Source: Phorcus lineatus (Eukaryota; Mollusca; Gastropoda; Trochida; Trochidae). Taken from it: a stretch of 64,000 nucleotides of DNA. Location of the stretch: the NCBI GenBank assembly GCA_921293015.1, contig OV121088.1:34075645-34139644 (forward strand), in the 5' to 3' direction. Of this stretch, positions 16,493 through 50,900 are shown one piece after another. Position 1 is the first letter of the stretch, and every line of letters begins with the position of its first letter. The position numbers and the translations under genes are program-made. The notes below the pieces were generated by a model. That model had not been told where the DNA came from, ran no database searches, and saw only the letters and a list, made by a program, of their open reading frames with translations.

Positions 16493-34754
<18,262 letters not shown>

Positions 34755-44800: not shown

Positions 44801-44887
44801 CCTACTTTATCGTTACTGGATAGGATAAATATGGTATTTGTCAAGGAAAGAAAGATATCATCTTTTTAAAATTCTACTTTTTCAAAT

Positions 44888-44919
<32 letters not shown>

Positions 44920-47900
44920 CGGATAATAAGTGTTGACTCGATGGCCTACAATTAATGCTGCACACATTTTCATTTTCATTTCCTACACGACAGAAGGTTA
45001 AAACCATTGTGAAAAAAACCAGTGTAGCTATTTATAACAATGTAAAATATATCACTGCAATCGAGCATGTAAGGTGCGTCATGTGAGAGAGTTTCATTAT
45101 TGATATCGAAAAATTTGATTATTATCGACACAGATAAGAATGTTCTTGTTTGTTTATACAACATAAACAGCCTCACTGCAAAAAGTATTGTTTTCTCATA
45201 ACATTTTACCTGGGGCAGTTAATACGAGCAATTTAATCTCTTGTATATTTGCGACAAAGGCTGAATGAAAAAATGTTCTTGCGGGTAAATATTCCAAACC
45301 AAATTTTGCAACTTTCTTATCAATTACAAGACCCCGTGTATTTTACCATTTTACATTACATATAACGTATAATCGGTCATTCCGTTTTTGAGATAACCCT
45401 CATAACAAAGTGTTTCAATCATTTAACACTTTAAATCTTTAGGCGAATACATTTTTCCGAAACCCTGTCTTATATCATAATCATAATAATAGGAAGAGAT
45501 ATGACGGTGATCTTAAATAGAATGTTTCTCTGGTGTACGTACAATATCCCTTGAGCTTGTTGTAACAGCTTGCCCATTTTTCAGTCTAAAGCCGCCATGG
45601 ATTGATCCAGTTTTTGGACCCGACTTCAACACAGCCACTCCAAAAGTAGCCTCTTTCTCACAATCACTGTTGTCGATCAAAGCAAACCTATCACCCTTCA
45701 CGTCCTCCTTTAAATCACTTTTGAACCGGAAGTATAACGTGAAGTTTGACCTGAACTCCATGTTGTTGAGAGCCCAGGCTATAATCTGGCGGTGTCCGTT
45801 GAAATAGACCGCCCCTCCCCCGACTGAGGCTGGCTCTGACCTCTGGATCCATGAGTTGACCCCAGCGGAAGCTGTACGACCAAGTACGTCCTTGACATTT
45901 TCGTCGAATGGGAAGTAGATGTATGGTTCACATTTTCCTTGGTAGATAAAGAATGGTATTATTTCATAAGTAAAATTGAGCATTTCAAAATCTCATTGTA
46001 TAAGAGTAAACTACTTATTAAGACATAAAATATGCATACTTGTTTTATGGTACAAGTATAAGTATGAGAACGATATGGCAATGTTTGGGTACAACATTCC
46101 TATTTAAAAGAAATATAGATTCCATAAAATATTCTAAGGTTACATGCTAGTTTTTAGATTATTAAGTACCGGTCTTTACGACGTCCACGGAGTCAATGCA
46201 ACTACAGAACTCATCTGAGAAACAATTCCTATTTAGATGAAAGATAGATTCCTTCAAATATTCTATACATGCTAGTTTTCTGATACTAAAGTACCAATCT
46301 TTACGACGTCCACGGAGTCAGTGCAACTACAGAACTCCTCTGAGAAATAATTCCTATTTAGATGAAAGATAGATCCCTCCAAATATTCTATACATGCTAG
46401 TTTTCTGATACTAAAGTACCAATCTTTACGACGTCCACGGAGTCAGTGCAACTACAGAACTCCTCTGAGAAATAATTCCTATTTAGATGAAAAATAGATC
46501 CCTCCAAATATTCTATACATGCTAGTTTTCTGATACTAAAGTACAAATCTTGACGACGTCCACGGAGTCAGTGCAACTACAGAACTCCTCTGAGAAATAA
46601 TTCCTATTTAGATGAAAGATAGATCCCTCCAAATATTCTATACATGCTAGTTTTCTGATACTAAAGTACAAATCTTGACGACGTCCACGGAGTCAATGCA
46701 ACTACAGAACTCCTCTGAGAAACAATTCCTATATAGATGAAAGATAGATCCCTCCAAATATTCTATACATGCTAGTTTTCAGATACTAAAGTACAAATCT
46801 TGACGACGTCCACGGAGTCAATGCAACTACAGAACTCCTCTGAGAAATAATTCCTATTTAGATGAAAGATAGATCCCTTCAAATATTCTATACATGCTAG
46901 TTTTCTGATAATTAGTTACCAATCTTTACGACGTCCACGGAGTCAGTGCAACTAAAGAACTCCTCTGAGAAACAATTCCTATATAGATGAAAGATAGATC
47001 CCTTCAAATATTCTAAGGTTACATACTAGTTTTCTGATTATTAAGTACCAATCTTTACGATGTCCACGGCGTTAGTGCAACTACAGAACTCCTCTGAGAA
47101 ACCTGTCCCAGTGGCGCAGTTGAAGGTGACGTTTCTGCCCCCGGTCTGCCATAGGTATTTTTGTTTGTCCGTGGGGTGGGCAAATCTTTTGCACTCTGCA
47201 AAATTCAATGTATTATGATAACAATAGTAAACATCAACAACAACACATTTTCTATGTTTCACCCTGTAGAAGAAAAATCCGTTAACCTTAATGGTCGAGA
47301 AATGGTATTAATTTAAAAAGGAATAAATACACTGTATGAAAATTACATCGTAGGGGCGTTTGCGATTATTCATGTCATTCCAGCTTTAATATGAATGAAA
47401 ATGTAATTTGCAAAATTGAAATAATATGTGAGATTTATCAATTTGATTTTTATATATATTGTTGTGATTTATATATAATTGTTGTTTAAAAACACAATAG
47501 CCCGTTTTTATTTCCTTATGCTGAAACTGAATGATTAGGTGCCCTGTACTCACGACAAAATGCTAATCGCTTGAGCTGGCAGGTAAAATCTCATCGGATT
47601 TTAACCTAATTATACGTAATTAAAGCCAAATTGTGTAAACATGAGGTTCTTTTTGCCCTTGCACGGTCTCCAATAGACATAAGAAAGTGAAGATACCCTC
47701 TGATAGTTTTCAATGTTTAATCTCCAGCATTATTTTAAGGTAAAGACATTGAATAGGTAGTAAAACCAATAAACCTGTATTTGAAAGCAAAATAAGAACA
47801 ATTTTGAATGAATTTGCTGTCATTTGACACTCAGTTATCATTGATAAGGCAGTTTTTAGGTGAACCCAAATAGTGACATAGTTTTAGTGGTCCTCAGAGT

Positions 47901-50900
47901 CTCCATGTATGGCACGCTGGCTAACGGCCTTGGACGAGTCCCTTGTATCAAACTAATGGAGACTTTGAGAACTAGTTTGATTAAAATCAACAGTGCTCCA
48001 AGGAATACTGTTATACTCTGTACTCTAGAGGGATTCGAACTTACTCTATCGAGGACTTTCCTCTCCGCAACGGTATTAAATTACCCTCGTAGCTCGCACG
48101 TTCTGACGCAATCTCGACAAGCAAGTCACAAAGCCTCCGACAAAAGCCTTCGGTGTCAGTATCTAAGGGCAAGTAACTCCCGTTTACCATTCATTAACTT
48201 TGATCACCGCTATCCTTATTTTAAACGAAAAGGTGATTTGTCCGCTAATGACTAGGTTTTGTCTGTGTTTAACTGGTGTTAGCAAGTGCGAACAAGGAGG
48301 CTGCTTTCAGACCATTGTGAAGAGTGAAAGCCTCTGATAGAGTACGTTCTATCCTACTAGAGGAATTTTATTTCTCGGAATATGGTCGAATTTAATCAGA
48401 CTGCTTTGAGAACCATATGCTACACTTATTCTATGGCATAAATTTGGTCTAAACTAATGCATAATCACAAGAATGTACGACCATACAACCTTATGTTCAC
48501 CGCTGAAAACGGTGCCATTCCTACCTGGAGCTATTGCTGTGTCATTGGAAGAGCCGGGAAGACAGGGGTCGTTACATCCGGGTGAGTCAACGCACGTGCC
48601 CAAGTCTTCGTCGAACCTCTGATCCCTGGGGCAGCAGTTATACTTGAGGCGTGCTGCTTCAGGGCACGTGAGGTAGCCATTACAGTTCCTCAGGTCCCGG
48701 ATTGAGAACGTGCGATTGTAACATGGATCTATGGGGGACAACAAATTAGAAATGTTCATGATTTTTAATATACATGTCATTAAGTACAACGTTGTTTAAA
48801 GAGATATGTTCAGCTTGCCAGCAGACTGCACTTTACAAATTGATTTATTGAATCTTGACTTATACTTATCAAATAATAATAGTGTTCATAGAAATGCGTA
48901 CATAAGTCACTTAATATGTCAATGCAAAAGAAAGCGAGTCGAAGTTTGTCTCTGAATGAAAAAAGTAAATGTTCACATCTTGATTATTGAATCTGATATG
49001 GGGCGTCCGATGACATTTGACAAAATTTAGATCGAGAAAGATTTTTTTTTAAAATTGTGTATGCATTAAATAAGTTCTATAAATGACCCACTTTGCGGGC
49101 AGTCTGATTCGCTTGGCCAGACACATTGTTTGACGGCCTGGGACCACAGCAGTCCCCGGGTACACTCCTTCACCTCTCCCCGGAGCGAGTTGTCGGACCC
49201 CTGGGAGCAGTGCACGAATAGGTGACAGTATCGGGGGTGGTTCACGTACCCAGAACCAGTCGAGGTATCACACTCCTCGCACATCTCTGCAAAAAGGGCA
49301 TGGCTCGTTCAGAAACACTCGTCGAGGTTACGTTTCAAAATTTAACATATTTTACATTGCGAAGAATTGACGGTGTTAAGGTGTAAAGCCAAAATGAAGA
49401 CTAAATATCTTTGTACCTTCAGTATCTTGCATTGCTGCACCTACAGTGGGTTGCATATATCTTTACCTGTAGTGAACGCATTCAGATTGCACTCTGATTG
49501 CGGTCGAATGCATTTAGATTGCACTCTGATTGCGGTCGAATGCATTCAGATTGCACTCAGATTGCGGTCCAATGCATTCAGAATGCATTCAGATCGCGGT
49601 CAAATGCATTCAGAATGCCTAGATCGCGGTTTTCAGGAAAGTAATTCTGCAAGGGTCTGTACATGTACCATCATTGATAATGCTTACATGAGTTCGTAAT
49701 TGAAAACTCGATTGAGGGATACTGCCTAAAAGGCCAAAAATTTATTCTAATACATTTAGTTATCACGCACATTAATGTGAAATATTCTGCGGGTTTTGTT
49801 TTTCATAATTCGATTTAGATATGTAGTATTGTAAATGAATCATTCAAACAACAAACAACAAAATATTTTTTTTCACATGGAATAGTTATAAAGAATCGAT
49901 TTTTCAACACTTAAAAACATGTTGATGGCGACGAATCCCTATAAATGATTGGGTATGTACGTTTTAATTTTAATATTATCGGTAAAGAATTTCATATCTT
50001 ATTTTCGCCCGAAATAAGAGAGAAAATAGAGAGAGAAAAATATGTTCACAAATATTATCAAATAAGACCAATGTTTACCTACAAATGATATTGGGGTTCA
50101 TATTTTTCATACTATCCCCTACGGCAAATATCTCTTTTAATGTGACGTCACGTCATTAACAATGCTTTGACGTCACAGTTTGCCTTTGACATTGCGTTCC
50201 AAATGTGACGACGGCGAGTACACTGCCAATGCGATTTTGATTTCAGTAATAAACAGAAAATAATATTCGTGGCCATGACATACTGGCTCTCGCTCGGGAG
50301 ATATCAATATTTAGGCACTCGTGTCGGAAATATAGTATGTCATGAACACTGATATAATATCCTCTATAAATGCACAATAAGAACACCCTTTTGATTATCA
50401 AACAGCTAGGAACTGTCAATGTTTTTTAAATGCAAATTGTCCCTTTTTAGAAATAATATTATTAAACAAAAATCTATTCAATGAAGCACATTTTATACTT
50501 TATAATTGCATGATATGATGTTATTTGTTTGTACGTTCATGTACCTAATATGCTGCAGTTTGCATCCCGAATTTATTAAAGTTCAGTTCAGTTGTCATAG
50601 CGAATGTGCAATTGACAATGATTGAATAAAAGCCATGAACGAGCTCGTTGGATTAGTGATATTAAAAAATCGTTTATATCTTTATATAGTTATAGCTAAC
50701 AAAAACATGAAACTGTTTTTACACAAACTATCAGAAACAAAAGATAGGTTAATGAATACATTGCATGCATGTAATCTTTTTTGAAAGTAGGCAATGACTC
50801 GTAGATACAAATCGAAGGTAGGTAATCGAAACCATCTACTGATTGCTAAGTGCACCTTATCTTTTTAACGCAGTGCAAATGTAGATAATTAAAACCTTCT

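Follow-up and report, generated by a model that had tools for sequence, protein, structure and literature searches.

The window analysed here is a stretch of 64,000 nucleotides, in which a gene of the CBM14 type carries seven tandem copies of the end of its fourth exon inside its fourth intron. The question raised by this locus is whether the copies serve as micro-exons that vary the protein, or form an array that arose by accident and holds decoy splice sites. Both readings had been offered in an earlier note on this DNA. The analysis supported the accidental array but not the micro-exon series. The accidental array was favored because three of the seven copies gave stop codons at their joints, no excess conservation of the copied blocks was detected, and a precedent exists in amphioxus.

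Host gene and anatomy of the array

The host gene was modelled on the minus strand with six exons, and the borders were set by eye from the reading frame and GT/AG (Table 1). The joined frame has 434 codons counting the stop, which gives a 433-residue model. Exons further upstream may have escaped this by-eye model. The acceptor of the tentative exon 6 at 44801 (-) scored -7.1 on a generic matrix, and the true start may be a few bases off. In intron 1 of the same model, a 32-bp, 5-copy repeat is found at 49474-49630, about 190 bp before exon 2.

Table 1. Modelled exons, tandem array, and copied blocks, in positions of the window
Feature	Positions	Strand	Description
Exon 1 of model	51196-51112	-	by eye
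Exon 2 of model	49286-49092	-	by eye
Exon 3 of model	48728-48525	-	by eye
Exon 4, CBM14 gene	47195-47049	-	147 nt, phase 1-1; frame and GT/AG by eye
Exon 4 part of unit 1	47102-47049	-	54 nt; frame and GT, by eye
125-bp tandem array	46096..47102	-	8.0 copies, 93% matches
Copy 2 block	46920..46964	-	EEFFSCTDSVDVVKI; one Cys lost; ends G; joints open
Copy 3 block	46795..46839	-	ends ATTT; TGA/TAG at joints
Copy 4 block	46670..46714	-	ends ATTT; TGA/TAG at joints
Copy 5 block	46545..46589	-	ends ATTT; TGA/TAG at joints
Copy 6 block	46420..46464	-	joints open
Copy 7 block	46295..46339	-	joints open
Copy 8 block	46170..46214	-	DEFCSCIDSVDVVKT; begins AT, not AG; edge copy
Exon 5	45937-45543	-	begins GA (phase 1); frame and GT/AG by eye
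Exon 6	44801-44526	-	start tentative; by eye

A Pfam scan of the model detected CBM_14 in two stretches (E 3.7e-10), which bore out the CBM14 label given to the gene earlier; exon 4 alone produced a sub-threshold CBM_14 match (E 0.011). The accompanying Laminin G label was not confirmed. Within the C-terminal 223 residues, Pfam detected nothing at E up to 10, a negative limited by the HMMER filters, which discard most weak matches, and a PDB sequence search (E up to 10) returned two matches, the best at E 0.18 and neither named Laminin G. VWA was not found in the 433-residue model, in which CBM_14 was the sole Pfam match at E up to 1. The host gene resembles the Pif/BMSP-type shell matrix proteins (discussed in PMC11291548) in having CBM_14 downstream of an N terminus that, by eye, resembles a signal peptide. 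It differs from them in that neither VWA (E up to 1) nor a Laminin G match (E up to 10) was found in the by-eye model, and in that source (PMC11291548) it is the VWA clade that delimits the family.

The exons were also searched against the assembly. Exon 5 matched only itself (E up to 0.01), while exon 4 (E up to 1) had five matches, of which one was the exon itself, three were array copies (E 0.14), and the last was a weak distant place (E 0.04, 37% over 43 aa), whose DNA displayed no firm splice site by eye. With the exon 5 self-match and this weak distant match for exon 4, paralogs were rejected as an aid to polarising the differences between the exon and the copies.

The eight-unit 125-bp array described in the earlier note was confirmed by Tandem Repeats Finder (46096-47102, period 125, 8.0 copies), with a score of 1606 against a threshold of 50, and a chance origin is ruled out for eight units at 93% matches. 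On the minus strand, each unit consists of the last 54 nt of exon 4 and about 71-75 nt of intron 4. One unit is real, at the end of exon 4, and seven are intronic, all inside intron 4. The block-to-block spacing was 129 bp at the first unit and 125 bp for the six after it.

Identity among the units was not uniform. Copies 2-7 shared 90-98% identity with each other and 90-93% with unit 1, and copy 8, at the edge, shared 84-88% with all others. In addition, a 4-base segment is common to units 1 and 8 and absent from copies 2-7. Such a pattern is usual where the interior of an array is homogenised and its edges are excluded. At three first codon positions (N/D, A/S, and I/V), the true exon end (47049-47093) carries a base found in none of the seven copies. 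All three of these consensus differences change the amino acid, and their direction is not polarised without an outgroup or paralog.

A DNA search with the unit covered the 957.8-Mb assembly; the best candidates were scored, so that counts are lower bounds. There were at least eight matches, and all those listed lie within this array. On this basis, a dispersed or mobile origin of the unit was rejected. The same result bears on a reading in which the array functions in DNA or chromatin apart from splicing, for example as an intronic enhancer with the exon end carried along. This reading is very unlikely: among the assembly matches listed the unit occurs only here, unlike a shared, dispersed element.

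Reading frame, splice sites, and selection

At all eight places (one true and seven copies), TTTCTCAG is followed by a 45-nt block without internal stop and then GT. This agrees with what had been reported of the copies: the open block, TTTCTCAG, and GT were present in 7/7, the block length and phase 1-1 were correct, and the upstream AG is part of the exon 4 coding sequence. It had further been stated that each copy encodes EEFCSCTDSVDVVKI with two cysteines. Two cysteines were indeed retained in 6/7 copies, but the exact peptide occurred in only three (copies 5, 6, and 7), and copy 2 has lost one cysteine (EEFFSC).

The reading frame was then followed across the joints. Each joint codon is made of the last base of the preceding block and two bases of the next block or exon. 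The block starts are AG in seven of eight and AT in copy 8, and exon 5 starts with GA. In copies 3, 4, and 5 (block starts 46839, 46714, and 46589) the final base is T instead of G. Joined to exon 5 they form TGA (T+GA), and joined to a following AG-block they form TAG (T+AG); they escape the stop only when joined directly to copy 8, where the codon is TAT. In scripted single-copy splicing, copies 2, 6, 7, and 8 remained open (4/7), and copies 3, 4, and 5 met a stop at codon 226 of 449. When order-keeping subsets of the seven copies were considered, 21/127 were open. Fifteen of these were composed of copies 2, 6, 7, and 8 only, and the other six included one of copies 3-5 directly before copy 8. 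The earlier claim that any number of blocks could be spliced in without breaking the frame therefore fails, because copies 3-5 end in T and give TGA or TAG at their joints.

These results weigh on a coding micro-exon series, in which blocks would be included in variable number and each would add 15 residues between the chitin-binding region and the C-terminal part of the protein. The phase 1-1, the open interiors, and the AG and GT in 7/7 copies agree with such a series, and no stop arises in any order-keeping combination of copies 2, 6, 7, and 8. However, copies 3-5 stop at all joints except one kind, which leaves few subsets open. As the main reading it was rejected on these joint stops, and we consider it very unlikely.

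Splice-site strength was scored with a generic matrix that was not built for this species, and 191 AGs and 220 intronic GTs served as the acceptor and donor backgrounds. In exon 4, TTTCTCAG is coding and follows GGGACAGG, and the copies have intron-derived GGAATTG or GGAATTA in front of it. The acceptor score on the generic matrix rose from -3.09 at the exon 4 place to -0.03 in the copies, a value reached by 13.6% of the 191 background AGs. The proposal that the acceptor was created by duplication of coding sequence is thus supported by the flanking intron-derived sequence and by this rise in score. By the same generic matrix, four of the five inferred true acceptors scored 2.3 to 5.5, and the fifth, of the tentative exon 6, scored -7.1. 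The putative copy acceptor is mediocre, and its position below four of the five inferred true acceptors, the fifth being that of exon 6, argues against the micro-exon series.

The true donor of exon 4 was itself weak on the generic matrix (1.39, reached by 23.6% of the 220 background GTs). It was retained in the model because its GT fits the phase of exon 5 and an in-frame stop lies beyond. On this generic matrix, the donors of copies 2 (4.73) and 8 (3.01) outscored the true donor (1.39), and copies 6 and 7 have donors equal to it; therefore, occasional inclusion of these four copies is plausible. In copies 3-5, the change of the last exonic base from G to T lowered the donor score from 1.39 to -2.15 (generic matrix), the weakest of the array, and 59.5% of the 220 background GTs score at least as high. 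The statement that all copies keep the GT was accurate for the dinucleotide (7/7), but in 3/7 the last exonic base is T and the donor falls to -2.15 on the generic matrix.

The common G-to-T change also bears on a regulatory reading, in which inclusion of copies 3-5 as poison exons would truncate the transcript, lead to its decay, and tune expression. The occurrence of the same stop-making change in three neighbouring copies fits this reading. On the other hand, the donors of these copies score lowest in the array (-2.15 on the generic matrix), and a single mutation spread by array expansion accounts for the shared change. We regard poison exons as very unlikely.

Conservation of the blocks was compared with that of the intronic part of the unit by counting variable sites after gapped columns had been dropped and the copy 8 end masked. 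The counts for block and intronic part were 7/45 and 15/69 in copies 2-8 (Fisher p 0.47), 10/45 and 16/69 in all eight units (p 1.0), and 4/45 and 10/80 in copies 2-7 (p 0.77). Thus, no excess conservation of the block was detected in any of the three Fisher comparisons, whose numbers are small. Within the first 44 block positions, the copies displayed six distinct changes, of which four alter the amino acid and two are silent; the 132 possible single changes comprise 102 nonsynonymous, 26 silent, and 4 stop changes. If changes are equally likely, the chance of no internal stop is 0.83 for 6 events and 0.74 for 10 events. The open interior is no evidence of use, because chance alone gives 0.74-0.83. 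That no excess conservation was detected, that copy 2 has lost a cysteine, and that 4/6 changes alter the amino acid all speak against a coding micro-exon series. Weak selection on the blocks may still act, as the substitution counts are small.

A probable neutral boundary minisatellite and its wider meaning

The array is very probably a neutral boundary minisatellite, or mirage, whose copies would leave the transcript with intron 4, apart perhaps from rare aberrant inclusion. We infer that tandem duplication of a segment across the exon 4/intron 4 boundary came first, and that the array then expanded and was partly homogenised, probably by unequal exchange or slippage. The seven extra copies lie inside intron 4 and would be removed along with it. 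The acceptor-like TTTCTCAG is exon 4 coding sequence that duplication set behind intron-derived sequence, and the copy donors are copies of a weak true donor. The copies would then be decoys, used at most as rare aberrant exons.

Two observations stand against the neutral reading. AG, GT, and an open interior are kept in 7/7 blocks, which chance explains but use would explain too. Moreover, on the generic matrix, the copy acceptors score -0.03 versus -3.09 in exon 4, and the donors of copies 2 and 8 exceed the true donor. A more novel reading is a young exon nursery in use, with copies 2, 6, 7, and 8 as occasional 15-residue cysteine-bearing micro-exons and copies 3-5 as poison exons. We consider this reading very unlikely. 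If it were true, the length and composition of the array would tune linker length and protein amount, and would vary between individuals.

A second boundary duplication was found at 19919-20103 (-). Here the two copies of a 93-bp repeat each comprise 56 nt from before an acceptor of an ankyrin-repeat gene and 37 nt from after it, with the decoy block starting at 20047, the real one at 19954, and an identity of 80/93. The upstream exon of this gene ends with GATGACAG before GTAAGC, and the in-frame join gives DDRSPLHW. The hand-joined peptide matches the ankyrin-repeat family Ank_2 (E 8.3e-16). The occurrence of a second boundary duplication within the same 64 kb suggests that this kind of event is no rarity in the genome, although this is an anecdote and not a rate.

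For a base rate, arrays with a period of 60-500 and at least 2.9 copies were counted, at exon boundaries or elsewhere. Twenty 10-kb stretches of the same contig gave two rows, both from one locus, and the 64-kb window gave three. Elsewhere in the window, a 222-bp, 2.9-copy repeat with 94% matches lies at 27663-28302 and is followed by a 30-G run at 28308-28337.

In the neutral reading, the array plainly illustrates an exon boundary that has become part of a minisatellite, and duplication has given it a cryptic acceptor. This genome would be well suited to following the origin of exons and introns, and the way in which splicing ignores decoys, if it proves rich in boundary minisatellites.

Comparison with known boundary repeats

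Literature searches with molluscan or general wording found no such array; the terms were narrow and few subscription journals were covered, so absence from print is not implied. In humans, one report (PMC2812944) describes variable internal tandem repeats, minisatellites located where exons meet introns, which are able to turn on cryptic splice sites and give rise to new introns. These repeats occur in genes in segmental duplications and have units of 30 bp on average (PMC2812944). The present array is similar in being a minisatellite at an exon-intron boundary, but unlike the human repeats as described there (PMC2812944), its unit is 125 bp and exon 5 has one assembly match.

The closest descriptions were found under the name mirage, in lancelets, and an array outside lancelets would extend the phenomenon. 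As described in PMC3087553, amphioxus mirages are minisatellite-like tandem duplications of exon/intron boundaries, found in BflGb6, BflGb9, and earlier in Adh3, with units of 150-160 bp, 157 bp, and 10-72 bp, respectively. Many of the units carry AG/GT signals, the interior is concerted, and edge units are excluded; haplotypes differ in length, with 6 and 3 BflGb6 units in two haplotypes (PMC3087553). Adh3 data and globin RT-PCR suggest there that regular splicing is undisturbed by mirages (PMC3087553). According to PMC3902484, lancelet PGBD5 has imperfect 60- and 108-bp repeats at splice sites; the Adh and TnC mirages are cited as being without aberrant mRNAs, and the same is inferred for PGBD5. 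Either kind of exon/intron boundary can be hit by mirages (PMC3087553, PMC3902484). A route from such repeats to exons and new introns has also been proposed (PMC3087553). Therefore, the micro-exon idea is a published possibility for such repeats.

The present array differs from the amphioxus mirages in its gene and in having 8 units, and it was examined in one assembly. Its unit size, 125 bp, is similar to theirs. Three mirage features are found in it: a unit that spans an exon/intron boundary, with the exon border placed from frame and GT; AG/GT signals, here in 7/7 copies; and a concerted interior (90-98%), accompanied by the divergent edge copy 8 (84-88%).
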